Below are positions 6,753 to 23,117 of a DNA stretch of 64,000 bases, in pieces (within the stretch, counting starts at the first letter, position 1; every line of letters begins with the position of its first letter). The notes below the pieces were generated by a model, which saw only the letters and a list, made by a program, of their open reading frames with translations, was not told the DNA's origin and ran no database searches. A program made the translations under genes and the position numbers. The stretch is from Roseateles sp. (GTDB lineage: Bacteria; Pseudomonadota; Gammaproteobacteria; Burkholderiales; Burkholderiaceae_C), in NCBI GenBank assembly GCA_016790285.1, contig JAEUPJ010000072.1, forward strand, positions 1 through 64,000, read 5' to 3'.

Positions 6753-7396
6753 TCAAGATCCTGCTGGTCGAAGACCAGCAACTGGTGCGCGAAGGCCTGA
6801 AGGGGCTGCTCGCGCTGCATGACGAGCTCAAGGTCGTGGGCGAGGCCAGCGACGGCGCCGAGGCGCTGGAGTGGCTCTCGTCGGCGGCCGCCGACGACAT
6901 GCCCGACCTGGTCCTGTCGGACATGCGCATGCCGCGGCTGGACGGCCTGGGGCTGATCCGCGCCCTGGCCGCACGGGCCCTGCGCCTGCCCGTCGTGCTG
7001 CTCACCACCTTCGACGACACCACCGCGTTCGACGAGGCCGTGCGCGCCGGCGCCCGCGGCTTCCTGCTCAAGGCCATCAGCCCCGAAACCCTGGCGCAGG
7101 CGCTGCGCGACGTGCACGGCGGCGGCACCGCCCTGCGGCCCTCGCTCACGACGCGCATGGAGGCCAAGGGCGGCGAGCGCGCCTTCACGGCCGCCGACCA
7201 CCCGGACCCGCTGAGCCCCAAGGAGCTTCAGGTGCTGCGCCTGGTGGCCAGCGGCCGCAGCAACACCGAGATCGCCGCCCTGCTGGGCAATAGCGAGGGC
7301 GTCATCAAGAACCACTGCTCGGCCATCTTCTCCAAGATGGGCGTGCGCGACCGCACGCAGGCCGTGCTGCGCGCCATCGACCTGGGCTGGATCTGA
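6734..7396 (+). CDS. Response regulator, NarL/FixJ family with LuxR-type HTH
   Basis: Partner of the overlapping kinase; 220 residues. The receiver domain has the acidic pair E13-D14, the phospho-acceptor D63 (LVLSDMRMPRLDG) and the Thr/Lys switch residues (LLTTFDD, LLKAIS). The C-terminal GerE/LuxR HTH begins at LSPKELQVLRLVASG, about residue 160, and contains the usual IKNHCSAIFSKMGV recognition region. It should bind DNA as a phosphorylated dimer. MSTMGV offers two starts; the first is used here. No target can be assigned. Confidence 0.92.
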   Translation: MSTMGVIKILLVEDQQLVREGLKGLLALHDELKVVGEASDGAEALEWLSSAAADDMPDLVLSDMRMPRLDGLGLIRALAARALRLPVVLLTTFDDTTAFDEAVRAGARGFLLKAISPETLAQALRDVHGGGTALRPSLTTRMEAKGGERAFTAADHPDPLSPKELQVLRLVASGRSNTEIAALLGNSEGVIKNHCSAIFSKMGVRDRTQAVLRAIDLGWI

Positions 7397-11400: not shown

Positions 11401-11588
11401 CCGTAGCGGAAGGGCTGGCCGGCCTGGGGAGCCGTGGCGGCCAGGCCCGTGATGCCACCGCGGTAGGTGACGGCAGGCTCGTCCTTGAGTTGGACGATGT
11501 AGGTCTTGCGGTCCTGGGCTTGCGCACCAGCGGCCAGCGTGGACAGCAGCGCCAGGGTCGCCAGAGCTGCGGGCTTGAGTTTCATCAT
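8445..11588 (-). CDS. Secreted S8 (subtilisin) family serine protease with PA domain
   Basis: A 1047-residue exported protease. A signal peptide ends near residue 24 (AGAQA). An inhibitor-I9 propeptide spans about 28-130. The catalytic residues are D168 (VVGIIDGG), H264 in GGHGDHTA, oxyanion N378 (AASAGNSG) and S606 (YQGTSMSSPHVAG). A protease-associated (PA) domain is inserted around 440-520, between His and Ser. A Fn3-like domain follows the catalytic region from about 700, with a further beta-rich C-terminal part. The usual HGTH is HGDH here. A ribosome site AAGGAA precedes the ATG. It lies 40 bases downstream of the PEP-CTERM gene and is probably co-transcribed with it. Confidence 0.93.
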   Translation of the reverse strand: MMKLKPAALATLALLSTLAAGAQAQDRKTYIVQLKDEPAVTYRGGITGLAATAPQAGQPFRYGTPEVFAYAAYLEQNQATVAATVGNAPVLARYTNVFNGMALRLTEDQARQLIGNSQVAGIWEDEARQYDTISTSKFLGLSAPGGLWSQTVGGVANKGEDMVVGIIDGGIWPENPAFFDRVDSNGVPSNNPADTQVFGPKPATFNGTCVAGPGIDPAKHCNNKLIGIRHYNAGFNASGNTLHWTDFPNSGRDSVSGATGHGGHGDHTASTAAGNANVPATVDGLVLGSASGMAPRARVSSYKVCWTYVNAAATDGTGSQNSCYNSDSVSAIDQAVADGVNVINYSISGSRTTVNDPVEQAFYRAALAGVFVAASAGNSGPGTAVAHISPWLSTIAASTHDRAFSADATLGNAAKYTGASVNQTALASAPLIRAEDAGIAGASANLPLCFSNPLELDPAKVAGKIVVCTRGSNARVDKSLAVLNAGGVGMIMADNGSGLVAEAHSVPTVHVTSADGAAIKTYAQTAGATAAISKFYIGTTPAPKMAGFSSRGPNQGDSNILKPDMTAPGVDIIAQVTPGLTQADRDAVAAGTLVPGPAWASYQGTSMSSPHVAGVALLLKQAHPTWGPGAIKSALMTTAYDTLDDGLTGLSNGLLPWSQGAGHIAPNKATDPGLVYNAGKNDWVKYQCKVNRAAVSPASDCTTIGTLNDPYELNLPSITVANVLGSVTVPRTVTNVGSSSATYTASLTVPGFTAVVTPASLTLAPGASASFTVKLTATTAAEGVWNYGQLVWTDGTHSVRAPVQAKVGKPITAPAEFTDTKLSGSKLFTVRTGFAGKMGVTKGGMKDVTMGAPVVLASDSSADLDAACKAGSDTAAVKVYNFAVPAGTIVARWALRDADVLPVASDHDLTVVGPANTVLGSSGGATSKEQVQLVAPAAGNYKVCVLAYAGAASMTHSLSSWIVKTGDGAGLNALVPTTVYAGGTATVGLSWSGLTSGKRYVGGVQFQDAGGVTQATTTLRISTDGSVPVQNEPSPAAKPKAINVAAQ

Positions 11589-11628
11589 GTTCGGTTCCTT
11601 GTGCGTTGAGACGTGCGACGTGCCTGGA

Positions 11629-12366
11629 TCAGGCAGCGCGACGACGGCGCGAGTAGGCGAGCAGGCCAGCCACGCCCAGACCCATCAGGGCCAGCGAGGA
11701 CGGCTCGGGAACCGCGGTGATGGTCAGGTCGTCCAGTGCGAACTGGGCCTTGTCGTTGCCGTTGGCCAGGCAGGAGCCGGAGGCGTCGCAAGCGAAGGCG
11801 CGGATGCGGATGAACGAGGCCTGGGCAGCTTGCAGCGCGGCGTTGCCGGTCAGCGTGGCGAAGCTCAGGTTGCCGCCGGACAGGCCGCCGAGGTTGAAGT
11901 TCTGGCTGGCCAGCGCGACGCCGGAGCCGTTGTAGGCCGTCACCTGCAGGATGCCGGGCACGGAGGGCAGCACGTCGCCGGAGGCGCCGATGAAGGAGGC
12001 CTTGACGCTCGTGAACTTGATGTTCGCGCCGGTGGTGGAGCCGACGTAGAAGTAGCCGTCGTTGAGCATCGCCATGAAGTGCGAGCTGTTGTTGGTCGGG
12101 CAGGTGATGCCGACGCACGTGGCCGCCAGGTCGCTGCCGTCGATCAGCGCGCCGACGATGTCGGTGCTCGCGGCACCCGTCTTGGCCGACAGCGTGTCGA
12201 TCCAGAAGTCGCCCTGATAGAACTCGTTGTTGTGGGTGAAGAGCGGCGCGAAAGGCGCCAGCGGCGAGTCGATCGGCTGTTCAAAGTCGATCACTGCGGC
12301 CTGGGCCAGGCCCATGCTCAACAGCGTGACCGCGGCAAGCGCGGTTTTTTTCCAGAAATGCTTCAT
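11629..12366 (-). CDS. PEP-CTERM sorting-signal protein, QFxxD type
   Basis: A 245-residue exported protein. A signal peptide (MKHFWKKTALAAVTLLSMGLAQA) is followed by a beta-rich domain. The C-terminus is a textbook PEP-CTERM tripartite signal: VPEPSSLALMGLG, a hydrophobic helix and a YSRRRRAA basic tail. The sequence QFALDDLTI just before it fits the family I know as NF038120 (PEP_CTERM_QFxxD). Such proteins are processed by exosortase and sent to the surface or exopolysaccharide layer; the exosortase itself is not in this window. The start at 12366 was chosen for the signal peptide; the frame is open further upstream. Confidence 0.88.
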   Translation of the reverse strand: MKHFWKKTALAAVTLLSMGLAQAAVIDFEQPIDSPLAPFAPLFTHNNEFYQGDFWIDTLSAKTGAASTDIVGALIDGSDLAATCVGITCPTNNSSHFMAMLNDGYFYVGSTTGANIKFTSVKASFIGASGDVLPSVPGILQVTAYNGSGVALASQNFNLGGLSGGNLSFATLTGNAALQAAQASFIRIRAFACDASGSCLANGNDKAQFALDDLTITAVPEPSSLALMGLGVAGLLAYSRRRRAA

Positions 12367-12539
12367 GTGTGAGACCCCAATCGAAAACCAATGATGTTGG
12401 TGTTGCGCACCTCGATACGGTGGAGGCCAGGGGCCGGGCGGTACCCGAACACCAGCCAGCAAGCCGCTTGCCGGCCAACTCCGTGAAGGAATGGACAGGG
12501 GACCGATTCTTGTGAGGGGGCCATGGGCGGGGCATCCCC

Positions 12540-12626
12540 AATTGCCCTTCCCGCGCTTGAGGGGGTAAAGGGTTTTCACCAACCCCCAAGCGGCTTGAGG
12601 GGTTTTTCTTTCTAGTAAGAAAACCC
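12540..12626. repeat. Intergenic block of overlapping inverted and direct repeats
   Basis: Between the last pseudopilin gene and the PEP-CTERM gene. CCCCCAAG-CGG-CTTGAGGGG followed by TTTTTCTTT resembles a plus-strand terminator. It overlaps GGGGTTTTTCTT...AAGAAAACCCC, which as a minus-strand hairpin would directly follow the pseudopilin stop codon at 12627. A CTTGAGGGG(G) element also occurs twice (about 12556 and 12595). The block may end the secretion-like operon, but the T-tract polarity fits the plus strand better. The rest of the gap (to 12366) shows nothing recognisable. Confidence 0.4.
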
Positions 12627-13145
12627 CTATGGCACGGCTGAAGCCGCTTCGCTGGCCCCGGGAGCGGGCAGTGCGGGTTGTTGCCGCCCCTCAAGCGGTG
12701 GGGCAACGAACAGCCAGTCGCTGGCTTTGCGCAACAGGGTGCCGTCGGGGGCGCGCTCGCGCAGCAGCGGCTTGGCGGAGCGGCTGCGCACCGCGCCGAA
12801 GCGCGTGGTGTCGGCATCGCGGGGCACGAGTTCCCAGTCGGCCGCGCCGGTGAAGGGGTCGACGTAGCGCTGGCGCAGGTGATGGCGCACGGCCGGGCCG
12901 CGGCGGTCCTCCAGCAGGTCGTCCAGGCTGCGCGGCAGCTCGGGCTGCGCCGTGACGCCGGCCTTCTGGTAGCGCGTGATGGCGTCGGCGATGGCCTCCC
13001 CACGGAACTGCAGCTCCCGCTCGCGCTCGCGCTGCGCGGCCGTGCTCCAGGCCTGCCCGAGGGCGGCCAGGCCCGCGGCCGTGAGCGCGACCAGGAAAAG
13101 GACGGCCAGGTAGCTGAAGCCGCGCTGCGCGGGCATGGCGCTCAC
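12627..13145 (-). CDS. Pseudopilin-like protein without Glu5, last gene of the T2SS-like operon
   Basis: A 172-residue protein with a short basic leader and a type III signal-like stretch: RG, then FSYLAVLFLVALTAAGLAALG. Unlike the neighbouring pseudopilins, mature position 5 is Ala instead of Glu. It has a helical region rich in RERERELQFRGEAI and a VDPFTGAADWELVPRD motif seen in GspG-like pseudopilins. The gene overlaps the upstream pseudopilin by 4 bases. Lack of Glu5 is a hallmark of tip or initiating minor pseudopilins (GspK type), so a minor or tip role is my inference. Confidence 0.75.
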   Translation of the reverse strand: MSAMPAQRGFSYLAVLFLVALTAAGLAALGQAWSTAAQRERERELQFRGEAIADAITRYQKAGVTAQPELPRSLDDLLEDRRGPAVRHHLRQRYVDPFTGAADWELVPRDADTTRFGAVRSRSAKPLLRERAPDGTLLRKASDWLFVAPPLEGRQQPALPAPGASEAASAVP

Positions 13146-13534
13146 CAGTCGGCGTAGAGCCTGCCGTCGGCCGAGCGGCCCGCGGCGCCGCTGCGCACGT
13201 CCCAGACCCGGCCGCTGGCCTGCATCTCGGTGGGCGGCGGCAGCTCGACCCAGCTCTCGCGGCTGCCCGTGAGGGGGTCCTCGGGCACCTCGCGGATGTA
13301 GCGCGCCGCGGCCAGCTCCTGCAGCGAGTCGGGGTAGCGGCCCTTGTCGGCGGCGTACTGGTCGATGGCGTCGCGCATGGTCGTGAGGGACTGCAGCAGC
13401 GCCGTCTCGCGGCTCTTGCCCAGCGAGGCGAAGTAGCGCGGCGCGACGATGGACGCGAGCAGCGCCACGATGGCCATCACGACGATGAGCTCGATCAGCG
13501 TGAAACCGCGGGCAACGCGCGCACGAGCCATCAC
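13142..13534 (-). CDS. GspG-like pseudopilin
   Basis: A 130-residue prepilin-type protein. The leader MMARARVARG ends at the prepilin peptidase site, followed by FTLIELIVVMAIVALLASIVAP with Glu5 present. The globular part contains the GRYPDSLQELAAARYIREVPEDPLTG segment typical of GspG-like and related minor pseudopilins. It overlaps both neighbours by 4 bases. It should be cleaved and N-methylated by a PilD-type peptidase encoded elsewhere, and assembled in the inner-membrane pseudopilus. Confidence 0.85.
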   Translation of the reverse strand: MMARARVARGFTLIELIVVMAIVALLASIVAPRYFASLGKSRETALLQSLTTMRDAIDQYAADKGRYPDSLQELAAARYIREVPEDPLTGSRESWVELPPPTEMQASGRVWDVRSGAAGRSADGRLYADW

Positions 13535-13998
13535 CAGTCCTTCAGCCGAGAGCCGTCCAGCGCACGGCGCTCGGAGCGGGAGTACACGTCGAACACGTCC
13601 TTGCCGGCGCGCGGGTCGTCGGGCGGGCTGTCGTAGGCGCGCAGCCCCCAGGTGTCGGCCGCGGGCAGCTCGGCCGGCGCGAAGGGGTCGCGCGGCAGGC
13701 GGCGCAGGAAGTACATCTTGCGGCCGTTGGGTGAGCGCGCGTCGGGCACGCCGTCGACCAGCAATTGCAGCGTCTTGGGGTAGCCGCTGTCCTCGGGGCT
13801 CAGGGCGACGCTGCCGGCCTCCACCGCCCGCTTGTAGGCGTCCAGCGCCTCGCGCAGCGCGCGAAGGCCCTGGCGCAGCTCGTGCTCGCGGCTGCGCTGC
13901 ACCGACAGCTCCAGCAGCGGGCGCGCTGCCGAGACGAGCACGCCCATCATGGCCAGCACGACCAGCATCTCGATGAGCGTGAAGCCCCGGGCGCGCAT
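13531..13998 (-). CDS. Pseudopilin of the T2SS-like operon
   Basis: A 155-residue prepilin-type protein with a very short leader (MRARG) and mature N-terminus FTLIEMLVVLAMMGVLVSAARP (Glu5 present). A helical part rich in RSREHELRQGLRALREALDAYK and a RLPRDPFAP motif resemble GspG/GspH-like subunits. The start at 13998 is set by the leader; the open frame runs far upstream only because of antisense GC bias. It begins 11 bases after the secretin stop and overlaps the next pseudopilin by 4 bases. Confidence 0.85.
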   Translation of the reverse strand: MRARGFTLIEMLVVLAMMGVLVSAARPLLELSVQRSREHELRQGLRALREALDAYKRAVEAGSVALSPEDSGYPKTLQLLVDGVPDARSPNGRKMYFLRRLPRDPFAPAELPAADTWGLRAYDSPPDDPRAGKDVFDVYSRSERRALDGSRLKDW

Positions 13999-14009
13999 GG
14001 CGGGCACGG

Positions 14010-16184
14010 CTACTTGGCCGCCCCGACGGCGAGCAGGCCCGAGCCCTCGACGCGCACGGGTGCGGACTCGCCGTTGACGCCCACGGCGGACAGGCTGCTC
14101 AAGCTGATGTTGAGCACCTGGCCGGCCGCCGGCGGCAGGGCGCGGAAGGCCACCACGCGCTCGCCCCGCGGCGTCAGCTCGACCGGGTAGCGCCCGGGCG
14201 TTGCACCCTGCAGGGGCTGCGCCGGCGACAGCTTGGCCGGGTCGAACTCCAGCTCGCCCTTGACCTGCAGGCCGCTGTCGTTCTTGAGCGCGACCGACAC
14301 CGTGCCGCCCGCCGGGACCTGGGGCGTGACGTCGAGCTTGACGGTGGCCTCGGTCGGCGCGGCGGCCGGCTGGGGCGTGGGGCTGGCCGGTGCGGGCGCG
14401 GCACCGCTGCTGGGCGCCACGCCCACCTTGGCGTCGCGGCGCAGCAGGCTGCTGAAGGCGCCGGGGCTGCCGTCCACGCCGCTGGCCAGCCGCGTGAGCG
14501 AGGCGTCGGGCACGGCCAGGTTGCGCACCACGCGCGGCGTGATGAGCAGGACCACCTCGGTCTTGTTGCGCGTGTCGCTGTGCGTGCCGAAGAGGCGGCC
14601 CAGCAGCGGGATGCGCGACAGGCCCGGGATGCCGCTCGCGCTCTTGCGGTCCTCGTCGTTGATGAGGCCGGCGAGCACCTGCGTCTCGCCGTCGGCCAGG
14701 CGCAGCGTGGTGGCAGTCTTGCGCGTGCCGATCTCGTAGGCCGTCGTGCCGCCCGGGCCGGTGACCTGGCGGATCAGGTTGCTGACCTCCAGGCCCACCT
14801 TGATGACGACGTCGTTGTCGAGCTGGATGGTGGGCTCGACGTCGAGCTTCAGCCCGATGTCGAGGTAGGTGACCGAGGCCGCCACCGAGGTCTGGCCGGT
14901 GAAATTGGTGGTGGTGGTGAACACCGGCAGCTTCTGGCCGATGTGCACGTTGGCCTTGTCGCGGTTGCGCACGCGGATCTTGGGATTGGCCAGCGTGTTG
15001 GTGTTGCCGCTCGTGCCGCGCAGCGTGGCCACGATGGCCGGGTTGGCGATGCTCGCGCGGAAGTTGATCGGGTTCTTGCCACCCACGAAGACCTGCGCGG
15101 GGATGTTGCCCGCCGCGTCGCTGATGCCCAGGCTCGCCGTCTCCGGCCACTGCAGGCCCAGCGTCTCGACCTGGTCGGTGGCCAGCTCCATCACCTCCAC
15201 CTCCAGCATCACCTCGGGCTCGGGCAGGTCCACGGAGGCGATGAGCTTCTCCACCAGCCGCAGCACCTCCGGCGTGTCGCGCACGACGAGCAGGTTCAGC
15301 CGCTCGTCGATGTGGATGTCGCGCACCTTGGCGATGGTGCGCACCATGGCCTGCACCTGCTTGACGTCCGCGTTGGTGAGGTAGAGCGTGCGCGTGATCA
15401 GCTCCTGGTGCTCGCGCTGCTTGGCCGAGGTGTTCGGGAAGATCAGCACCGACGTGTCGTTGAGCAGCTTGCGGTCGAGCTGCTGCGTGTTGAGGATGAC
15501 GCGCATGGCCTCGTCCATCGTCACGTTGCGCAGGAAGATGGTGATGCGCGCGTCGGAGCGCACGTCCTTGTCGAAGACGAAGTTCACGCCGCTGGAGCGG
15601 GCGAGCGACTCGAACACCTGGCGCAGCGGCGCGTCGCGGAACTCCAGCGTGATGGGCTTCTGGAAGGCCGGGCCCAGCTCGCCCACCGCCGACTCCAGCG
15701 GCCGCGACTGCGCGACCTGCGTGGCCAGCAGCCGCGCGCCGGGGTGCTGGGGCGACTCGGCCAGCACCTCGCGGGCGATGGCGTCGGCACGCTCGATGCG
15801 GCCTTCCTTGAGCGCGGCGCGGCCGGCCGCGAGCTGGGCGTCCTGGCGGCGGCTGCGCTCGACCTCGCTCGTCAGTGCGGCCAGCCGCGGGTGGCGGGCG
15901 TCGGCGAGGGCCAGCTGGCTCAGCAGCGCCGAGGCCTCGTCCCAGCGTCCGGCGCCGCGCAGCGCCTCGATCTGCAGGATGAGCCGCGCCGTGGCCTGCT
16001 CGCGGGCACGCACCTGGGCAGCGCGCAGCTGCGGGTCGTTCGGGTCCTTGGCACGGGCGTCGTCCAGCACGCGCAGCGCCGCCGGCCACTGGTTGCTGCG
16101 GCCGAGGTCTTCGGCCTCGCGCAGCGCCGGGTTGGCACAGGCCGTCAACAGGACGGCGCTGCAGAGAAGAAGGAAGTGCTTCAT
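14010..16184 (-). CDS. Secretin (GspD/MshL-like) lipoprotein with C-terminal cohesin-like domain
   Basis: Outer-membrane channel of the secretion-like system, 724 residues. The lipoprotein signal has lipobox LTAC (Cys16). Residues about 20-175 are helical TPR-like repeats. N-domains follow (PITLEFRDAPLRQVFESLARSSGVNFVFD and later segments), then the secretin beta-barrel domain with VEPTIQLDNDVVIKVGLEV and the conserved EVVLLITPRVVR end. After a Pro/Ala-rich linker the last about 110 residues (VKLDVTPQVPAGGTVSVALKN...) look like a cohesin-type beta sandwich, unusual for classical GspD. It overlaps the GspC-like gene by 4 bases. Confidence 0.88.
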   Translation of the reverse strand: MKHFLLLCSAVLLTACANPALREAEDLGRSNQWPAALRVLDDARAKDPNDPQLRAAQVRAREQATARLILQIEALRGAGRWDEASALLSQLALADARHPRLAALTSEVERSRRQDAQLAAGRAALKEGRIERADAIAREVLAESPQHPGARLLATQVAQSRPLESAVGELGPAFQKPITLEFRDAPLRQVFESLARSSGVNFVFDKDVRSDARITIFLRNVTMDEAMRVILNTQQLDRKLLNDTSVLIFPNTSAKQREHQELITRTLYLTNADVKQVQAMVRTIAKVRDIHIDERLNLLVVRDTPEVLRLVEKLIASVDLPEPEVMLEVEVMELATDQVETLGLQWPETASLGISDAAGNIPAQVFVGGKNPINFRASIANPAIVATLRGTSGNTNTLANPKIRVRNRDKANVHIGQKLPVFTTTTNFTGQTSVAASVTYLDIGLKLDVEPTIQLDNDVVIKVGLEVSNLIRQVTGPGGTTAYEIGTRKTATTLRLADGETQVLAGLINDEDRKSASGIPGLSRIPLLGRLFGTHSDTRNKTEVVLLITPRVVRNLAVPDASLTRLASGVDGSPGAFSSLLRRDAKVGVAPSSGAAPAPASPTPQPAAAPTEATVKLDVTPQVPAGGTVSVALKNDSGLQVKGELEFDPAKLSPAQPLQGATPGRYPVELTPRGERVVAFRALPPAAGQVLNISLSSLSAVGVNGESAPVRVEGSGLLAVGAAK

Positions 16185-16729
16185 GGGGCAGGCCTGAAGA
16201 CGATGTTCTGGGGAAGCTGGCCGGGCAGCCAGGTCAGGCGCACGCCGCTGGTCGTGACCTGCTCGACGCGCCACTGGCCGTCGATGACGTCACCGGCCTT
16301 GGCACTGACCGCCTTGTTCGGGCCGGTGAGCAACGCCACCTCGACCGCCTTGGCGCCCTCGCCTTCGACCACGCGGCCGATCATCTGGTAGGGCGCGGGC
16401 GGTGCGACCGGCGGCGGCGGGGGAGGTGGCGCCACGGGCGGCGGCGCCGGGGGCGGCGGGGGTGGAGGCGGCGGCTGCCAGGCCGCGAGCTGCGCCGGGG
16501 TCACCTCGGCCCAGGGCGCACGCACGCCGGCCGAGGACGCCGCCGACGCGGAAGGAACGGCCGCCATGGCGCTCGATGCGGCCGGCGCAGCCCGCCGCAC
16601 GGGCGCGGCCGCGACCGCGGGGGCGTCGTCGTCCGGGCGCGTCGCGACCCAGGCGGTGGCGGCCAGCGTCGCGGCGAGCGCGGCGCCGAGCGCGATCTGG
16701 CGCGGGGTGAGTCTCGTGGTGCCGCTCAT
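16181..16729 (-). CDS. GspC/PilP-like periplasmic linker protein
   Basis: A 182-residue inner-membrane protein with a single N-terminal transmembrane helix (about residues 10-30), an Ala-rich segment, and a long proline-rich linker made mostly of P with A and V (about 85-115). The compact C-terminal domain (YQMIGRVVEGEGAKAVEVALL...AGDVIDGQWRVEQVTTSGVRL) resembles the HR/PilP fold that contacts secretin N-domains. ATG 16729 gives a 4-base overlap with the upstream GspM-like gene; it also overlaps the secretin gene by 4 bases. Its place between inner-membrane and secretin genes fits the role. Confidence 0.75.
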   Translation of the reverse strand: MSGTTRLTPRQIALGAALAATLAATAWVATRPDDDAPAVAAAPVRRAAPAASSAMAAVPSASAASSAGVRAPWAEVTPAQLAAWQPPPPPPPPPAPPPVAPPPPPPPVAPPAPYQMIGRVVEGEGAKAVEVALLTGPNKAVSAKAGDVIDGQWRVEQVTTSGVRLTWLPGQLPQNIVFRPAP

Positions 16730-17235
16730 GGCGCCGCCCTCCCGTGCAGCGACCACTGCAGCTCGGCCTCGACCTCGGTGGCCATCGGGCTCACGCGGCG
16801 CAGCTTGACGGCGTCCAGGCTCAGCGCGGGGTCATGCGCCAGCGCGGCGGCAATGTAGCGGCGCACCTGGGCATAGGGGCCCGTGACCGGCATGGTCACG
16901 CGCAGCCGCTCCAGGCCCTCGGTGCTGGCCAGGCGGTGCTCGGTGCGGGCGGCGTTCAGGTCCAGCCGGATGGCCAGCTCGAGCAGGTCGGCCAGGCGCT
17001 GCTGGCGCTGGCTGGCCGGCGGCAGCGCGGCCTGCCACTGCTGCACGCTGACCGGCGCCGCCGCCGCCGCCGGGCGCGCCTTGGCGCGCAGCTCGCGGGC
17101 TTCGGCCTGCAGCCGCGTGGCCTGCGCGTCCCAGCGCTGGCCCAGCAGCAGGGCCCCGGCCGCCAGCAGCAGCGCGGCGACACCGGCCAGGCCGGGCGCG
17201 CCGAGCTGCCTGAGCACGCGTGCGAGCCGGTTCAC
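16726..17235 (-). CDS. GspM/PilO-like inner-membrane protein
   Basis: A 169-residue protein starting at GTG 17235, which follows a GGGAGG ribosome site and forms a GTGA overlap with the preceding gene's stop. One transmembrane helix (about residues 12-32) is followed by a coiled-coil-like segment (RWDAQATRLQAEARELRAKARP) and an alpha/beta periplasmic domain (RLRVTMPVTGPYAQVRRYIAAALA) as in PilO/GspM. The frame is open well upstream, but that part is antisense noise. It should pair with the GspL-like protein to link ATPase and secretin. Confidence 0.72.
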   Translation of the reverse strand: MNRLARVLRQLGAPGLAGVAALLLAAGALLLGQRWDAQATRLQAEARELRAKARPAAAAAPVSVQQWQAALPPASQRQQRLADLLELAIRLDLNAARTEHRLASTEGLERLRVTMPVTGPYAQVRRYIAAALAHDPALSLDAVKLRRVSPMATEVEAELQWSLHGRAAP

Positions 17236-18371
17236 GAACCACCTCCCGTCGTCACGCGGGCATTGATCTCGAAGCGCTGGCCCACCAGCCCGGTCTCGGC
17301 CGCCGAGAAGCGCGACAGCACGACCTGCCGCCAGCCCGGCGTCGTGCCCAGCTGCTCGGCCAGTTGCAGGGCCAGCAGCTTGTCGGGCGTGAGGCCCTCC
17401 AGGCGCAGCTCGCCGCGGCCGGCGCTCGCGTCCAGGCCCAGCCAGGCGATGGTCTTGGCGTCGGCGCCGGCCGTCTCCACGCGGGTGAGGAGGGGCTCCC
17501 ACGGCATGGCGAGCAGCGCACGCGCCTCGGTGGCGGCGCGGTTGTCGGCCGGCTCCGCACGGCCCCGGGCCGCAGGCTTGGCCGCCGCGGCAGCCGGGCG
17601 CAGCGACGCCACGCGGTCGCGCGCGGCCTGCGCCACGTCCAGCGCGCGGTGGCTGTCCAGTGCGCTCCAGGCAGCCGTGGCCAGCACGAGCGCGCCGGTG
17701 GCCGCCAGCGGCCAGGCCAGCGGCGAGCGGCCCGAGCGAGGCAGGAAGTCGGGCGCCGGCATGGCCGGCCCGGGCTGGGGCGTGAGGGTGTCGTCGGGCG
17801 TGCCCACGGCCAGCGGCGCGTCGCCCCCGAGGTCGGCCAGGCGCTGCACGCGGCGCGACTGCAGCGCCGCGATGCGACCACGGTCGAGCTGGATGACGAC
17901 AGCCGTCATTTCGCCCTCCGCGCCCTCATGCCACACGACACGGCCGGTGCCGGCGCGGGTGTCTGCCGGCAGGGCGGCAAGCCAGGCACTCCAGGCCGGG
18001 CGCACGCTGGCCAGGCGCACCTGCGCCGCAGCCGCGCGGGCCTGCAGCGCGGCCAGGTCCAGCCCGTGCAGGGCCGACGCGCCCGCGGCCTCGCCCACGC
18101 GCCACGGGGCGATGGCAAACCGCTGCGCGGCCGCGCCGAAGTAGTGGGCGAACTGCTGCTGGGCGTAGGCCTGCACGGCGTCCAGGTCGGCCAGGGGCAG
18201 GCCGGGCTCCACGACCAGCTCGTGCAGCGCCCGGGCGCTGACGATCACGTCCACCGCCGTGCCGGGGTGCTCGCTGCACCAGGCCTCGAACTCGTCGCCG
18301 CCGGGCGTGACGAACACGCGCCGCGGCGTGCCCAGCCGGGCGGCGAGCTGGCGACGCAGGCGTTCACTCAT
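17232..18371 (-). CDS. GspL/PilM-PilN-like inner-membrane assembly protein
   Basis: A 379-residue bitopic protein. Residues 1-215 form a cytoplasmic domain in the place of PilM/GspL-cyto. One transmembrane helix covers about 217-236 (LAWPLAATGALVLATAAWSA). The rest is a periplasmic domain with a ferredoxin-like pattern (GELRLEGLTPDKLLALQLAEQLG) as in PilN/GspL. Similarity is structural and positional rather than a strong motif match. ATG 18371 overlaps the ATPase stop by 8 bases and is preferred to the GTG at 18383. It likely anchors the ATPase to the membrane. Confidence 0.7.
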   Translation of the reverse strand: MSERLRRQLAARLGTPRRVFVTPGGDEFEAWCSEHPGTAVDVIVSARALHELVVEPGLPLADLDAVQAYAQQQFAHYFGAAAQRFAIAPWRVGEAAGASALHGLDLAALQARAAAAQVRLASVRPAWSAWLAALPADTRAGTGRVVWHEGAEGEMTAVVIQLDRGRIAALQSRRVQRLADLGGDAPLAVGTPDDTLTPQPGPAMPAPDFLPRSGRSPLAWPLAATGALVLATAAWSALDSHRALDVAQAARDRVASLRPAAAAAKPAARGRAEPADNRAATEARALLAMPWEPLLTRVETAGADAKTIAWLGLDASAGRGELRLEGLTPDKLLALQLAEQLGTTPGWRQVVLSRFSAAETGLVGQRFEINARVTTGGGS

Positions 18372-19875
18372 CGAGGGTGACACGTTCCAGCTCCTCGAAA
18401 GTGGTCTCGCCCCGGCAGACGGCCGCCAGCGCCATCTCGCGCAGCGACTTCATGCCCCGGGCCTTGGCCGCGGCCTTGATCTCGGACATGGGCGCGCGCG
18501 CCGCGATCAGGTCCCGCAGGCCGTCGTCGAGCTTGAGCAGCTCGGCCACCGCGCGGCGGCCCTTGTAGCCGGTGCCGCGGCAGTGGCCGCAGCCCTCGCC
18601 CTTCAGGAAGTTGCCGTTCAGGACACCGTGCCGCGCGAGCGTGGCGGCGTCGGGCGTGAAAGGTCGCGCGCAGTGCGTGCAGGTCAGCCGCACGAGGCGC
18701 TGCGCGAGCACGGCGTTGAGCGCCGACACGACGTTGTACAGGTCCAGCCCCATGTGCATGAAGCGGCCGATGACGTCGAACGCGTTGTTCGCGTGCACCG
18801 TGCTGAACACGAGGTGGCCCGTGAGCGCGGCCTGCACGGCGATCTGGGCCGTCTCGGCGTCGCGGATCTCGCCCACCATGACGCGGTCGGGGTCGTGGCG
18901 CAGGATGGAGCGCAGGCCGCGAGAGAAGGTCAGGCCCTTCTTCTCGTTGACGGGGATCTGCACCACGCCCGCGAGCTGGTACTCGACCGGGTCTTCGATC
19001 GTGATGATCTTGTCCGCGCCGGTGTGGATCTCGGCGAGCGTGGCGTAGAGCGTGGTCGTCTTGCCCGAGCCCGTCGGGCCGGTGACGAGCAGCATGCCGT
19101 GCGGCTGGCGCGCCTGGTGGCGGATGGCGGCGCGCTCGTCCTCGCCGAAGCCCAGGGCGTCCAGCGTGAGCGTGCCGGCCCGGGCGATGGCCGCGCGGTC
19201 CAGGATGCGGATGACGGCATCCTCGCCAAACACGCTGGGCATGATGGACAGCCGGAAGTCGATCTCGCGACCCTGCACGCGCAGCTTGAAGCGGCCGTCC
19301 TGCGGCAGGCGGCGCTCGCCGATGTCGAGCTCGGCCATGACCTTCAGGCGCGACACGAGTTGCTCAGCCACCTGCGGTCCCTCCACCTGGCGCACGAGGG
19401 CCATCACGCCGTCCACGCGGAAGCGGATGACGGCACCGCGGGCGGTGCATTCGATGTGGATGTCGGACGCGGTGTCCTGCAGCGCGTCGTAGAGCGTGGC
19501 GTTGAGCAGGCGCACGACGGGGCTGGCCTGCTCGGCCAGGGCCAGGGCGGAGAGTTCCTCGGTGTGGTCCTCCACGGCCGTCAAGGCCTCCTCGACGTCC
19601 GACAGCGCGCGGAAGTCCGCCTCGCCGGCGCCGAGGAAATGCGTCACCGCCTCCACCGAGCAGCGCTGCCACCCCACCGGGGCACTCAGGCGGGACTCCA
19701 CGCTTTGCAGCAGCATCGCGTCCTCGTCGCGCTCGGCCAGCAGCATGCGCCGGCCCTGCGCACCCACGGCCAGCACGGCGCGCCAGCGCTGCGCCTGGGC
19801 CTGGGGCCATTGCTCGAAGTCCAGGTGCCAGGGGCCCTGCTCGGCGGGAAGCCAGTCGTGCAGCGAGGTCGTCAT
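18364..19875 (-). CDS. GspE/PulE-type secretion ATPase
   Basis: Cytoplasmic hexameric ATPase that drives pseudopilus assembly, 503 residues. Walker A is GPTGSGKT at 266-273. The Asp box (TIEDPVEYQL), the Walker B region (RHDPDRVMVGEIRDAETA) and the His box (FSTVHANNAF) follow. A CxxC...CxxC zinc site (CTHC, then CGHC) lies near the C-terminus, as in GspE and PilB. The N-terminal domain (about 1-120) is shorter than in typical PilB. The start at 19875 was chosen because the upstream frame translates the palindromic repeat at 19892-19979, which is not coding. Confidence 0.92.
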   Translation of the reverse strand: MTTSLHDWLPAEQGPWHLDFEQWPQAQAQRWRAVLAVGAQGRRMLLAERDEDAMLLQSVESRLSAPVGWQRCSVEAVTHFLGAGEADFRALSDVEEALTAVEDHTEELSALALAEQASPVVRLLNATLYDALQDTASDIHIECTARGAVIRFRVDGVMALVRQVEGPQVAEQLVSRLKVMAELDIGERRLPQDGRFKLRVQGREIDFRLSIMPSVFGEDAVIRILDRAAIARAGTLTLDALGFGEDERAAIRHQARQPHGMLLVTGPTGSGKTTTLYATLAEIHTGADKIITIEDPVEYQLAGVVQIPVNEKKGLTFSRGLRSILRHDPDRVMVGEIRDAETAQIAVQAALTGHLVFSTVHANNAFDVIGRFMHMGLDLYNVVSALNAVLAQRLVRLTCTHCARPFTPDAATLARHGVLNGNFLKGEGCGHCRGTGYKGRRAVAELLKLDDGLRDLIAARAPMSEIKAAAKARGMKSLREMALAAVCRGETTFEELERVTLDE

Positions 19876-19891
19876 GCGCGGCAACTCCCGG

Positions 19892-19979
19892 GAACACAGC
19901 CACAGAGGCACAGAGGCACAGAGGCACTCGGTTGCTGCAACGAGCCTCTCTGTGTCTCTGTGCCTCTGTGGCTGTGTTT
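19892..19979. repeat. Palindromic CACAGAGG repeat, copy 1
   Basis: An imperfect palindrome of about 88 bases. The left arm begins GAACACAGCCACAGAGGCAC and continues in steps of CAGAGGCA. The right arm is its near reverse complement, ending GCCTCTGTGGCTGTGTTT. The centre (CTCGGTTGC-T-GCAACGAG) is itself self-complementary, so the RNA could fold end to end. It sits between gspF (stop 19991) and gspE (start 19875), 16 bases before the gspE start codon. Three more copies occur at 32439, 38240 and 39253. Confidence 0.9.
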
Positions 19980-19990
19980 GCTGAAGCCCT

Positions 19991-21193
19991 TCACTGCACC
20001 TGCTCCACCAGCTGGAAGATCGGCAGGTACATCAGCACGATGATGCCGCCGATCAGCACGCCCATGATGAGCATCAGCGCCGGGTTCACGAGGCGCGAGA
20101 GCAGGTCGGTCAGCCGCGCGGCTTCCTCGTCGTGGAAGGCGGCGGCGCGCTCCAGCATGCTGGCCACCTCGCCGCTGCGCTCGCCCACGCGCAGCATGCG
20201 CCGGGCCACGGGGGTGGCGAGGTCCTGGGCGTCGAAGGCGGCGGACAGGCGCTCGCCGCGCTCGATCTGCGCTGCTGCGGCCTGCACGGCCGGGCGCCAC
20301 GGGGCGGCCACGACGTCGACGACGATCTTCAGCGCCGCCAGCGCCGGCACGCCCGAGGCCAGCAGCATGGCCAGCGACCGGTACAGCCGCGCCAGGGCCA
20401 GCACGCGCAGGCGCGGGCCCAGGCCCGGCAGCGTCCAGAGCGCCGCCTGCGCACGCTGGCGCACGCCGGGCTGACGCAGCAACGCGTAGACCGCCACCGC
20501 CGCGGCCGCCAGGCCCCCGATAACCAGGCCCGGGTGGGCACCGGCCGTCTGGCCGAACTCGATGAGCACGCGCGACGCCCAGGGCAGGTCGGCGCTGGTG
20601 GCCTCCAGGATGCCCGCAAAGCGCGGCAGCACGTACAGCAGCAGGAAGAGGATGACCGCGCCACCCACGCCCAGCAGCATCAGCGGGTAGACCAGGGCGG
20701 CGACCAGCCGCGAACGCAGCGCGTCCACCCAGGCCAGGTAGCGCGCATGCTGGGCCAGGGCCACGGAGAGCTGGCCGGTCTTCTCGTTGGCCGCGACGAT
20801 GGCGCAGATGAGTTCGTCAAACGCCTGCGGCTGCTGGCGCAGCGCCACCGACAGCGGCTGGCCCTGCTCGATCTGGCCGATGACGGCGTCCAGCGCGGCG
20901 CGCACGCCGGGCTGGCCTTCCTTCTCGCGCAGGGTGTTCAGGGCTTCGAGCAGCGCGATGCCGGCGTCCAGCAGCACGGCGAGCTCCTGGCTGAAGAGCT
21001 GCAGCGGGAACTTGGCGCTGCGCCGCCGCGCCAGGGCCGGCGCGCTGACCTCGCGCACCTCCAGCACGTGCTGGGGCGGCACGCCGAGCACGGCCGCGAC
21101 CGAGGCACGGTCGGGCGCCTCCACGCGCTGGGAGCTCACGCTGCCGGCGCGCAGCACGCGGGTCTGGAACTGGGGCACGGCGCGTGGCGTCAC
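19991..21193 (-). CDS. GspF/PilC-type inner-membrane platform protein
   Basis: A 400-residue platform protein for pseudopilus assembly. It has two T2SSF domains (about 65-190 and 270-390), each with the conserved pattern seen in FSQELAVLLDAGIALLEAL...GQPLSVAL and LARLYRSLAMLLASGVPALAAL...GERLSAAF. Hydrophobic helices lie at about 165-190, 212-235 and 370-392. It overlaps gspG by 4 bases upstream. It is separated from gspE downstream by the palindromic repeat, the one large gap inside this otherwise tightly packed operon. Confidence 0.92.
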   Translation of the reverse strand: MTPRAVPQFQTRVLRAGSVSSQRVEAPDRASVAAVLGVPPQHVLEVREVSAPALARRRSAKFPLQLFSQELAVLLDAGIALLEALNTLREKEGQPGVRAALDAVIGQIEQGQPLSVALRQQPQAFDELICAIVAANEKTGQLSVALAQHARYLAWVDALRSRLVAALVYPLMLLGVGGAVILFLLLYVLPRFAGILEATSADLPWASRVLIEFGQTAGAHPGLVIGGLAAAAVAVYALLRQPGVRQRAQAALWTLPGLGPRLRVLALARLYRSLAMLLASGVPALAALKIVVDVVAAPWRPAVQAAAAQIERGERLSAAFDAQDLATPVARRMLRVGERSGEVASMLERAAAFHDEEAARLTDLLSRLVNPALMLIMGVLIGGIIVLMYLPIFQLVEQVQ

Positions 21194-21606
21194 CAGGAGG
21201 TGAGGTCGGCGTCCTCACCCTCGCCGCCGGGCCGGCCGTCCTTGCCCAGGCTCAGCAGGTCGTACTCGCCGTGCTCGCCGGGGCTGCGGTATTGGTAGTC
21301 GTTGCCCCAGGGGTCCTTGGGCACGGCCTTGGAGAGGTAGGGCCCGGCCCACTTGGGCTCGTCGGCCGGCTTGGTCACGAGCACGGCCAGGCCCTGCTCG
21401 GTGCTGGGGTAGCGGCCGACGTCAAGCCGGTACTGGTCGAGCGACTTCTGCAGCGCGTCGATCTGGGCGCGGGCGGCCTTGACCTCGCTCTTGCCGATCT
21501 GGCCGAAGAACTTCGGACCGACATAACCGGCCAGCAGGCCGATGATGACCATGACGACGAGGAGTTCGAGCAGCGTGAAGCCGCGAGCGCGCAAGGACGA
21601 GGACAT
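21190..21606 (-). CDS. gspG: Major pseudopilin GspG
   Basis: A 138-residue pseudopilin. The leader MSSSLRARG is followed by FTLLELLVVMVIIGLLAGYVGP with Glu5. The family hallmarks are clear: LDQYRLDVGRYPSTEQGLAVL, GPYLSKAVPKDPWGNDYQY, and the calcium-binding C-terminus GEYDLLSLGKDGRPGGEGED. An ATG at 21642 would give a longer leader, but a 9-residue leader is more usual, and the 21642 start would lie at the foot of a strong stem-loop. It is the first gene of the T2SS-like operon after the TIGR03790 gene. Confidence 0.9.
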   Translation of the reverse strand: MSSSLRARGFTLLELLVVMVIIGLLAGYVGPKFFGQIGKSEVKAARAQIDALQKSLDQYRLDVGRYPSTEQGLAVLVTKPADEPKWAGPYLSKAVPKDPWGNDYQYRSPGEHGEYDLLSLGKDGRPGGEGEDADLTSW

Positions 21607-21645
21607 GAGGAAGCTGGGTACTGCGGGAGGGGGACTGTTCATCAG

Positions 21646-21724
21646 CGGGCGGCCCCCGGCAATCGGGATTTGACCGACGCGCATTCTCAGGGTGGAACGT
21701 AAAGCCCCGCGCGGGGGCCGCCCG
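21646..21724. promoter_or_regulatory. 13-bp inverted repeat bracketing the TIGR03790-gspG gap
   Basis: A perfect inverted repeat, CGGGCGGCCCCCG at 21646-21658 and CGGGGGCCGCCCG at 21712-21724, encloses 53 bases and starts 5 bases after the TIGR03790 stop on the minus strand. The inner part also holds a smaller GCCCC/GGGGC hairpin followed by only three T residues. In RNA the 13-bp stem would be very stable and end about 40 bases before the preferred gspG start. It could stabilise an upstream 3' end, attenuate, or control gspG translation. Confidence 0.6.
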
Positions 21725-21728
21725 AGCC

Positions 21729-23117
21729 TCAGGACGACTGGGCCAGCGTGCAGCGCGTGGCGGAGTCGGCCGGGCAGGGCCCGACCCAGCGGATCTGGGT
21801 GGCTGCGGCCGGCGGCAGGGGTGAGCGGCCGTCCAGCGCCTGCCCGCGCACACCCGTGAAGGTGGCCAGCGTCGTCCAGCTGCTGCCCTGCAGGTACTCC
21901 AGCGTGTAGCGGCCGCCGGGGCGCAGCTGGCGGGTCTTGATCTGGTACTCGCCGTTGACGATGGCAAAGCTTGGCGCCTCGCGGAAGGGCTGGGCCAGGG
22001 GTTCCCCGACGAACAGGCCCTGCCCGGGCCATTGCACGGACTTCCAATAGGCCTCGATGGCGGTGGCGCCGCGCCAGTAGTGGTCGATGAGGACGGAGGC
22101 GCGCGAGAACTTCTGCACCAGGTTGCACGGCTCCTCGACCGTGCCGTAGCTGGCGGTGGCCCCGGCGTCCAGCCAGGCCGTGATGGGCATCTGGCCGTTG
22201 GCACCGGGCAGCAGCCCGCCGGTGGACGTGAGCGTGTCGGCCAGCGCGCCGGGGCGGAACTGCAGCGTGGACAGGTTGGGCACGCTGGCCAGGCCCGTCA
22301 GGTAGAACAGCACGCCGTTCTTGCCCGAAATGGCGTTGCCGCTGGCTGGGCCGGCACTGTTGTCCAGGTAGTTCAGCGTCAGCGCGCCGCTCCAGGCAGT
22401 GGGCAGGGCGGCGAAATCGCCGGCGCGCACGCTGCGGTCGGTGTCGGTCGTGCGCACGAGCCAGCCCTCGCCCGCCGGCCGCGTGGCGTCGGCGGCCACG
22501 CCGCGGTTGATGAGCGCCTCGGCGCCCGCCAGCGTGGTGGCGCCCAGCAGCATCGACGGGCGCAGCTGCACCTCGCCCTGGGGCCGGCGGGCTTCACTGT
22601 CGTACAGCGGCGACGCCGCCGTGCTGGCGCACTGGTTGGCCGACGGGTTGGGGTTGCAGTAGCGCGCGTCGAAGCCGAAGGCCATCGCGCTCGTGATGCC
22701 CATGCTGCAGCTGCCCACAACACGGCTGGGCGCCGCCCAGGTCAGCAGCGTCGCCTGGATGCCGGCGGGCAACTTGGCGTCGATGTCGGCTTTTAGCAAC
22801 GCGAAATCACTGGCCTGGATCACGTTGAGGGCGGTGTTGACCCGCACGCGGATGAGGTTGGCGGCCGGCACGCCCCGGGCGGCGACGTAGGCCGCGCCAA
22901 CGGCCTCGCTGAGCGCGTCGCCCTCCGCCACGACGACGGCCAGGTCGGCCGGCGCCAGGCCGTTGGCGGGCAGCGTCAACGTGAGCGTCTGCCCTATGCC
23001 ACCGCCACCACCGCCACCCCCATCGCCGCCTCCGCCCGACGCCCCGCCACCACCGCCGCCACAGGCGCTCAGCAGGCCGAAGAACACGGGCAGCAACAGA
23101 CGGGTCAGGCTCCTCAT
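21729..23117 (-). CDS. TIGR03790 family lipoprotein
   Basis: A 462-residue exported lipoprotein (lipobox LLSAC) with a glycine-rich linker of about 25 residues right after the lipidated cysteine. The rest matches what I know of TIGR03790, a family of unknown activity said to occur only in genomes that also carry exosortase. Visible features are VVVAEGDALSEAVGAAYVAARGVPAANL near the N-terminus, SMGITSAMAFGFD, and VLIDHYWRGATAIEAYWKSVQ near the C-terminus. It lies directly upstream of, and in line with, the T2SS-like operon, while a PEP-CTERM gene lies at the other end. Confidence 0.8.
   Translation of the reverse strand: MRSLTRLLLPVFFGLLSACGGGGGGASGGGGDGGGGGGGGIGQTLTLTLPANGLAPADLAVVVAEGDALSEAVGAAYVAARGVPAANLIRVRVNTALNVIQASDFALLKADIDAKLPAGIQATLLTWAAPSRVVGSCSMGITSAMAFGFDARYCNPNPSANQCASTAASPLYDSEARRPQGEVQLRPSMLLGATTLAGAEALINRGVAADATRPAGEGWLVRTTDTDRSVRAGDFAALPTAWSGALTLNYLDNSAGPASGNAISGKNGVLFYLTGLASVPNLSTLQFRPGALADTLTSTGGLLPGANGQMPITAWLDAGATASYGTVEEPCNLVQKFSRASVLIDHYWRGATAIEAYWKSVQWPGQGLFVGEPLAQPFREAPSFAIVNGEYQIKTRQLRPGGRYTLEYLQGSSWTTLATFTGVRGQALDGRSPLPPAAATQIRWVGPCPADSATRCTLAQSS

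Follow-up and report, generated by a model that had tools for sequence, protein, structure and literature searches.

A compact, predicted type II secretion operon of atypical kind and its linkage to PEP-CTERM genes in Roseateles sp. and related genomes

A 64,000-nucleotide stretch of DNA from Roseateles sp. (assembly GCA_016790285.1; positions 1–64,000 of contig C66, JAEUPJ010000072.1), hereafter the window, was analyzed for a run of ten genes resembling components of a type II secretion system (T2SS). The window is part of a 5.88-Mb draft genome of 107 contigs with a G+C content of about 71%. Judged from their sequences, the ten genes are predicted to form a second, atypical T2SS of this genome, and PEP-CTERM genes were found beside operons of this type in seven- to tenfold excess. 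On balance, we favor the reading that the ten genes would encode a compact, atypical T2SS that exports locus-specific, often PEP-CTERM-linked cargo encoded next door.

Results

The ten-gene operon in the window

Six secretin matches were found in the source genome. One belongs to a canonical T2SS on contig C69 near 83.7 kb (GspD 569.1 bits, cut-off 351.35; GspE 682.9, cut-off 630.25; GspF 457, cut-off 424; GspG 181.8, cut-off 88.85), and another on C69 is PilQ (512.4 bits, cut-off 284.35). Because a canonical T2SS is also present, the window operon is called the second, and because its GspD-, GspE- and GspF-like products, each clearly a member of its superfamily, score under the T2SS equivalog cut-offs it is filed as an atypical variant. 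The window secretin reached 182 bits as PilQ (cut-off 284.35), 164.2 bits as GspD (351.35) and 117.4 bits as MshL (250.2), and the GspE-like ATPase reached 457.3 bits as PilB (675.65), all under cut-off. An ordinary Gsp or MSHA cluster was ruled out by the curated cut-offs of GspD, GspE, GspF, PilQ, MshL and PilB. The genes are as follows, with the neighbors after the ten.

21190–21642, minus strand: GspG-like major pseudopilin with Glu at +5 (TIGR01710, 188.5 bits, cut-off 88.85)
19991–21193, minus strand: GspF-like inner-membrane platform protein (PF00482, 171.2 bits; TIGR02120, 255.9 bits, cut-off 424)
18364–19875, minus strand: GspE-like ATPase (TIGR02533, 500.1 bits, cut-off 630.25)
17232–18383, minus strand: GspL-like protein, assigned by position and homologues alone (syntenic homologues via a custom hidden Markov model)
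16726–17235, minus strand: GspM-like protein, T2SSM_b (PF10741, 20.8 bits, just under the cut-off of 21.7)
16181–16729, minus strand: GspC/PilP-like protein with a proline-rich linker (GspC_delta, 19.4 bits, cut-off 150; PilP, 20.3 bits, cut-off 34.65)
14010–16184, minus strand: GspD-like lipoprotein secretin with TPR repeats, secretin N domains and secretin domain (PF00263, 145 bits; Secretin_N, STN, TPR)
13531–14013, minus strand: minor pseudopilin p1 with Glu at +5 (N_methyl PF07963; GspG and GspH matches under cut-off)
13142–13534, minus strand: minor pseudopilin p2 with Glu at +5 (N_methyl; TIGR01710, 58.7 bits, under cut-off)
12627–13145, minus strand: minor pseudopilin p3, GspK-like, without Glu at +5 (GspK model residues 1–55, 17 bits against 130, E 0.0033)
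21729–23117, minus strand: TIGR03790 family lipoprotein of 462 aa, lipobox LSAC read from the translation (NCBIfam TIGR03790, 161.4 bits, cut-off 67)
11629–12366, minus strand: PEP-CTERM protein of the NF038120 (QFxxD) family, candidate cargo (NF038120, 213.3 bits, cut-off 80; PF07589, 32.9 bits, cut-off 20.7)
8445–11588, minus strand: subtilase with I9-S8-PA-fn3_6 architecture, candidate cargo (PF00082, 127.5 bits; PA, fn3_6, Inhibitor_I9)

All ten co-directional genes of the preliminary description were recovered by family scans and open reading frames, on the same strand as the TIGR03790 gene before the operon and the PEP-CTERM and S8 protease genes after it, which are likewise where they had been placed. 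The 4-base overlaps, described as prevailing, occur at seven of the nine boundaries within the ten genes (G/F, L/M, M/C, C/D, D/p1, p1/p2 and p2/p3); the G/F overlap is the basis for the GTG start assigned to gspF, both family scans of which covered 19991–21145. The E/L boundary is a 20-base overlap, and the F/E boundary is a 115-base gap (19876–19990) with an inverted repeat (CACAGCCACAGAGGCACAGAGACACAGAG...CTCTGTGCCTCTGTGCCTCTGTGGCTGTG) that looks like a small repeat element in the only sizeable gap of the ten genes. No NCBIfam or Pfam match was obtained for the GspL-like protein at E ≤ 0.01. The cluster had been said to lack GspH, GspI, GspJ, GspK and a prepilin peptidase, and the GspH and GspK matches there were under cut-off; p3 is nevertheless GspK-like, and the one prepilin peptidase of the genome was found on C69 (23845–24168, 92.6 bits). 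The TPR repeats and secretin domain ascribed to the GspD-like protein were found, and its supposed cohesin domain gave no Pfam match at E ≤ 0.01; homologues in Janthinobacterium and Eleftheria carry the NCBI name 'cohesin domain-containing protein', which refers to the C-terminal extension.

The gspG start lies 86 bases past the end of the TIGR03790 gene, the PEP-CTERM gene starts 260 bases past the last pseudopilin gene, and the S8 gene starts 40 bases past the PEP-CTERM gene and extends to 8445, beyond the interval first described. A hairpin read by eye (AACCCCTCAAGC...GCTTGGGGGTT, 12565–12610) between p3 and the PEP-CTERM gene is a possible terminator or attenuator dividing the operon from its candidate cargo, and with a 260-base gap and a hairpin before it the PEP-CTERM gene may have its own promoter. 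Sigma-54-type sites in the window numbered 7 against 10.3 expected by chance, none preceding the PEP-CTERM gene, and no consensus sigma-70 promoter was found.

Conservation of the cassette

Genomes of the order (n = 200) were surveyed, with this secretin type called at E ≤ 1e-40. It was found in 78 genomes, with a best match of E < 1e-80 in 76 of these, and most matches spanned roughly residues 10–610 of 724 or more. In a survey of the phylum, 8 of 398 genomes matched at E ≤ 1e-40, all within the same order, a threshold that more distant relatives would escape. Neighborhoods were read for 94 loci from the 78 genomes and for 80 named loci; the latter are the best 80 matches of a scan and are biased to relatives of the window, so that their proportions are not frequencies. 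The closest named secretins among these 80 were those of a Comamonadaceae metagenome-assembled genome (MAG) and three Pelomonas genomes (L211–L214, 76–88% identical) and that of Roseateles caseinilyticus (79%).

Many families share the gene order G-F-E-L-M-C-D-p1-p2-p3. Of the loci long enough to judge, 53 of 78 in the order survey and 31 of 48 named ones had all ten genes by strict criteria; 25 of the 42 incomplete loci were without one gene by the detection used. Since the cassette recurs in other families, the gene set of the window is not a product of chance. Glu at +5 was conserved among homologues of G (132 of 136), p1 (158 of 161) and p2 (148 of 164). For p3 (150 homologues, 15 without the motif) the commonest residues at +5 were G, A and W, and Glu was not in the top six. 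The GspK-type tip pseudopilin is one that lacks this Glu, and four pseudopilins including a GspK-like tip point to a compact T2SS.

Linkage to PEP-CTERM genes and EpsA

Linkage was assessed at 61 secretin loci. They belong to 51 genomes, of which 48 carry exosortase and the others are G193, G135 and G070. Within 547,592 flanking bases, 22 PEP-CTERM genes were found at 19 loci, against 2.11 expected. Flanking genes were called by a text pattern and the expectation was taken from each genome's own PF07589 count at E ≤ 1e-4 (E ≤ 1e-3 for the source genome), which is a different detector; the pattern recovered 14 of 30 PF07589 loci of the source genome. With the same pattern, 40 control regions (738,088 bases) held 4 PEP-CTERM genes in 3 regions. 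The control regions were drawn from the same genome set at contig starts or round coordinates and so were not random, 4 were shorter than 13 kb, and canonical T2SS neighborhoods were not among them. Some of these calls seem spurious: at least a 74-aa frame in L083 among the 22, and that of L197 among the 4 in the control regions. PEP-CTERM genes are thus seven- to tenfold in excess beside the operon. Apart from G054, whose hit falls within the operon on the opposite strand, the linked loci represent 10 genera in 8 families (18 genomes). The count also omits a PEP-CTERM gene of G049 that lies 3.2 kb past the secretin, just beyond the sequence examined. The remaining 33 of the 94 loci gave no PEP-CTERM gene by the text pattern.

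EpsA (TIGR03020), named by NCBI 'XrtB/PEP-CTERM-associated transcriptional regulator', was above cut-off at 38 places in 33 of the 200 genomes. It lay within 10 kb of the secretin 13 times, against 0.2 expected, in 12 genomes of 6 families. An exosortase was present in 11 of these 12, and the twelfth, G193, has 43 PEP-CTERM matches. At two loci of one genus (L111 and L112, in G037 and G082) an XrtB gene is found approximately 5 kb from the secretin.

Co-occurrence with exosortase and TIGR03790

Exosortase (PF09721) was matched in 79 of the 200 genomes, of which 74 were kept at E ≤ 1e-20 after exclusion of five with weak or partial matches (G083, G135, G137, G144 and G156). Secretin and exosortase occurred together in 48 genomes, the secretin alone in 30, exosortase alone in 26 and neither in 96 (odds ratio 5.9, P = 1.5e-8), and the same table by genus was 32/13/14/50 (P = 4.6e-7); these statistics are not corrected for genome size. 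Two of the 30 are probably exosortase false negatives, as G193 and G135 have 43 and 8 PEP-CTERM matches with no or just a partial exosortase match and their assemblies are probably incomplete; G070 has no PEP-CTERM match. Operon and exosortase are therefore correlated and neither needs the other. Strict restriction of the operon to exosortase genomes was ruled out, since 30 of 78 operon genomes are without a convincing exosortase. An association specific to XrtB was also ruled out (secretin in 25 of 36 XrtB genomes vs 23 of 38 other exosortase genomes).

The preliminary description had suggested that the operon may be a dedicated secretion or surface-display machine tied to the PEP-CTERM system. 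The strict dependence that this implies did not hold up, given these 30 genomes and the 62 of 78 operon genomes without TIGR03790. A milder tie is borne out by the odds ratio, by the excess of PEP-CTERM genes and EpsA, and by a PEP-CTERM and S8 gene pair that recurs beside the operon in two other families.

TIGR03790 was found in 20 of the 200 genomes. Its description as restricted to exosortase genomes agrees with 19 of the 20, and the twentieth (G137) has a partial exosortase match (E 7e-9); the full table of TIGR03790 against exosortase was 19/1/55/125. Against the secretin it was 16/4/62/118, so that TIGR03790 as a general operon component was ruled out. At the loci read, the only operons with an adjoining TIGR03790 gene were that of the window and those of three Pelomonas-clade loci (L212, L213 and L214), L211 and some other loci ending before the corresponding position. 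Because most operons are without it and it adjoins the operon only in this clade, TIGR03790 is not a general part but, on the loci surveyed, a lineage-specific neighbor, an extra of the Pelomonas clade. Its fold prediction from four close sequences (mean pLDDT 37.6) gave no usable structure. A second TIGR03790 gene of the source genome lies at C106:19188–20081, with no operon gene detected within the 20 kb read.

The downstream module in relatives

A downstream module recurs in many relatives. Past the operon, on the same strand, lie genes for EpsA, a PEP-CTERM protein, a protein of approximately 540 aa (X550), a TpsB transporter and a TpsA-type hemagglutinin. Counts were restricted to loci whose sequence reached 6 kb or more past the secretin, with EpsA called at ≥140 bits; L103, L104 and L123 (37–44 bits) were not taken as EpsA. 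Among 60 named loci, from the best 80 matches, EpsA was found at 33, PEP-CTERM at 30, both at 25, TpsB at 24 and X550 at 19, and among 78 loci of the order survey the counts were 12, 13, 9, 11 and 11. TpsB was always accompanied by EpsA (24 of 24 named and 11 of 11 order loci). On the Aquabacterium olei plasmid pTB101 the module can be seen in an annotated record, as a LuxR-type regulator, an ankyrin protein, PEP-CTERM, a hypothetical protein, POTRA and filamentous hemagglutinin.

X550 lies between the PEP-CTERM gene and the two-partner secretion (TPS) pair in L072, L076, L077, L078, L083, L239, L241 and others. Two members (L072 and L095) gave no Pfam or NCBIfam match at E ≤ 0.001. Its predicted structure suggests a PstS/DING-like fold: a Foldseek search of the PDB (model pLDDT 74.5) returned 41 matches at E ≤ 0.001, all titled PstS, DING or other phosphate-binding protein, with TM-scores of 0.29–0.40 by query length and 0.41–0.76 by target length. 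Matches of an X550 profile to PstS chains were weak (best E 0.0066).

Candidate cargo beside the operon

The PEP-CTERM and S8 pair of the window is also found downstream of the operon in L211, L212 and L213. In two other families a divergent pair lies upstream of gspG, in L106 (G056), L115 (G112) and L122 (G021), with S8 proteins 54–57% identical to that of the window over the part inside the locus and PEP-CTERM proteins 32–36% identical. The G056 copy, the only one of the three scanned with the model, is NF038120 (239.5 bits). The window clade and these three loci fall in separate parts of a tree of 173 secretins (one FastTree run, midpoint root; EpsA labels on the tree are from a lax 20-bit threshold). 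In a Nitrosovibrio-titled MAG (L289) the operon is followed by two PEP-CTERM genes.

In genomes without a convincing exosortase, ten proteins picked beside nine operons were scanned with Pfam, giving an RHS-repeat protein, a GH18 chitinase with CBM5/12, a TPR protein, a P-type ATPase, an SLT/LysM protein and one heparinase-like match below cut-off, and four without a Pfam match. On Janthinobacterium and Eleftheria plasmids the operon is near FG-GAP-like, RHS and SdrD-B-like proteins, and one Eleftheria copy has a PEP-CTERM gene nearby. These neighbors fit, and do not prove, a system whose cargo is local and exchangeable.

Past the S8 gene, the opposite strand of the window encodes a HisKA_3 histidine kinase and a NarL-type response regulator (5457–7396); in L211–L213 a LuxR-type match of 96 bits likewise lies past S8 on the opposite strand.

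Discussion

The reading of the ten genes as a compact, atypical T2SS with locally encoded cargo is built on gene content, gene order, conservation, linkage and co-occurrence; assembly, secretion and choice of cargo would proceed as follows. The GspE ATPase and the GspF/L/M platform would polymerize GspG into a pseudopilus with p1, p2 and the GspK-like p3 at its tip, the pseudopilins being processed by the single prepilin peptidase located on C69. The GspC/PilP-like protein would connect the inner and outer membrane parts, and the pseudopilus would drive folded periplasmic proteins through the lipoprotein secretin; export of such proteins by this core is what we infer by analogy with T2SSs. In the window the cargo may be the S8 protease, the NF038120 PEP-CTERM protein or both. 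In many relatives the cargo would be a PEP-CTERM protein together with one of PstS fold, both encoded near EpsA, and elsewhere unrelated proteins.

Several observations weigh against this reading. GspD, GspE and GspF do not reach the T2SS equivalog cut-offs, the score of the secretin as PilQ is somewhat above that as GspD, and neither GspL nor GspM passes a curated cut-off. Two or more genes were missing from 17 of the 42 incomplete loci, four of which are without p1–p3 (L233, L235, L242 and L244), and some loci have another order (M-C-D-p1-p2-p3-G-F-E-L in L129, L139, L141, L161 and L162). With the 260-base gap and the hairpin, the PEP-CTERM gene of the window may not be co-transcribed with the operon. 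At least one of the ten neighbors in exosortase-free genomes, the P-type ATPase, is plainly not cargo, and the canonical T2SS on C69 (L170) also has a PEP-CTERM gene nearby, on the opposite strand approximately 5 kb past gspF.

A type IV pilus-like fiber machine for adhesion, DNA uptake or motility would account for the best secretin score, as PilQ (182 bits), and for the weak PilP match of the GspC-like protein; we consider it very improbable, as the PilQ, MshL and PilB scores are under cut-off whereas GspG is above the T2SS cut-off, the cluster has no second ATPase gene (PilT), and p3 is GspK-like. The neighbors could instead be drawn together by shared control of biofilm or surface life, so that operon, EpsA, TPS adhesin and PEP-CTERM genes travel side by side and none encodes cargo. 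Such hitch-hiking would suit the regulatory nature of EpsA, the absence of TpsB from the surveyed loci that lack EpsA, and the export of TpsA by its own partner TpsB. What speaks against a simple form of it is that the PEP-CTERM and S8 pair recurs next to the operon in two different arrangements, the more so as the pair stands in separate parts of the secretin tree and at loci without EpsA over 140 bits, and we regard this explanation as quite unlikely.

The operon might be dedicated to carrying exosortase-processed PEP-CTERM proteins across the outer membrane in those genomes where the two are linked. Linkage to PEP-CTERM genes and EpsA, with exosortase in 11 of the 12 EpsA-linked genomes, speaks for this, as do the co-occurrence with exosortase, the XrtB genes approximately 5 kb away in G037 and G082, a T2SS ATPase at rank 34 of the PEP-CTERM profile in Haft 2006 (PMC1569441, Table 2) and the MYXO-CTERM and GlyGly-CTERM precedents for exit by T2SS, as given in the available portion of PMC11980579. 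The 30 of 78 operon genomes without a convincing exosortase and the 26 of 74 exosortase genomes without the operon stand against it, and just one of the 65 PEP-CTERM matches of the source genome (E ≤ 0.001) is beside the operon, in a genome with two exosortases (XrtA, 326.2 bits, cut-off 208; XrtB, 357.4 bits, cut-off 275). We regard such a dedicated role as unlikely. We put forward, as a tentative minority view, that some of the PEP-CTERM proteins processed by exosortase may pass the outer membrane through this T2SS lineage, EpsA inducing the machine and its cargo jointly. This would be a third case of a C-terminal sorting tag that works with an intramembrane processing enzyme and a T2SS, and the first to involve a distinct T2SS subclass tied to the tag. 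The original description of the system did not settle, in the sections available (PMC1569441), by what path PEP-CTERM proteins traverse the outer membrane once exosortase has acted, and a conserved compact machine coupled to PEP-CTERM genes and EpsA is a named, testable candidate for their export.

Comparison with known systems

With the canonical T2SS (Gsp/Xcp; C69 in the source genome) the window operon has in common the GspG, F, E and D core, pseudopilins and a shared prepilin peptidase. It differs in gene order, in its lipoprotein TPR secretin, in having only four pseudopilins and in scores, L, M and C as well as D, E and F being under curated cut-offs. Among atypical systems, GSU1783 and PP3483 are at loci that we take to be the T2SSs OxpG of Geobacter and Xcm of Pseudomonas putida. 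Both are listed as homologues of NE1609, a T2SS ATPase of Nitrosomonas europaea that is the 34th match of the PEP-CTERM profile, in Table 2 of Haft 2006 (PMC1569441), an entry that is the closest statement found in the open-licence literature searched. NE1609 likely belongs to the type of the window operon. Its homologues are found in PEP-CTERM-positive and -negative genomes alike, according to the same table (PMC1569441), which is the pattern obtained here, correlation without strict dependence. Among the best matches listed in searches of the open-licence literature, no title or abstract opening describes the pairing of this T2SS with PEP-CTERM.

Pseudomonas fluorescens SBW25 is described as secreting Psp (PFLU2427), a phosphate-binding protein of the DING family, as well as a large exoprotein (PFLU2428). 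One neighborhood-figure legend of that source lists psp, fhaB-like and gsp genes together (PMC5082522), much like the X550-TPS-T2SS module. That system is phosphate-responsive, and PEP-CTERM and EpsA are not mentioned in the available part of the article (PMC5082522). The NpdA S-layer gene beside a gsp cluster is likewise a surface protein next to a T2SS that may export it, although that cluster differs in having 12 gsp genes, gspH and gspI included, and another cargo, as the excerpted text describes it (PMC10765051).

Further parallels are GlyGly-CTERM with rhombosortase and MYXO-CTERM with myxosortase, each combining a C-terminal tag, a membrane processing enzyme and a T2SS for the outer membrane (PMC11980579, available portion). 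A PEP-CTERM tag, an exosortase and this T2SS would, by analogy, form a chain of the same kind. For rhombosortase, Haft 2011 found no T2SS subclass that it marks, in the part of that article available (PMC3237569), whereas the window type is a distinct T2SS subclass coupled to PEP-CTERM genes and a candidate for the transport of their products. Since two C-terminal sorting tags already exit by T2SS in the text cited (PMC11980579), a third tag leaving in this way, if true, would point to a general rule for Gram-negative surface anchoring.

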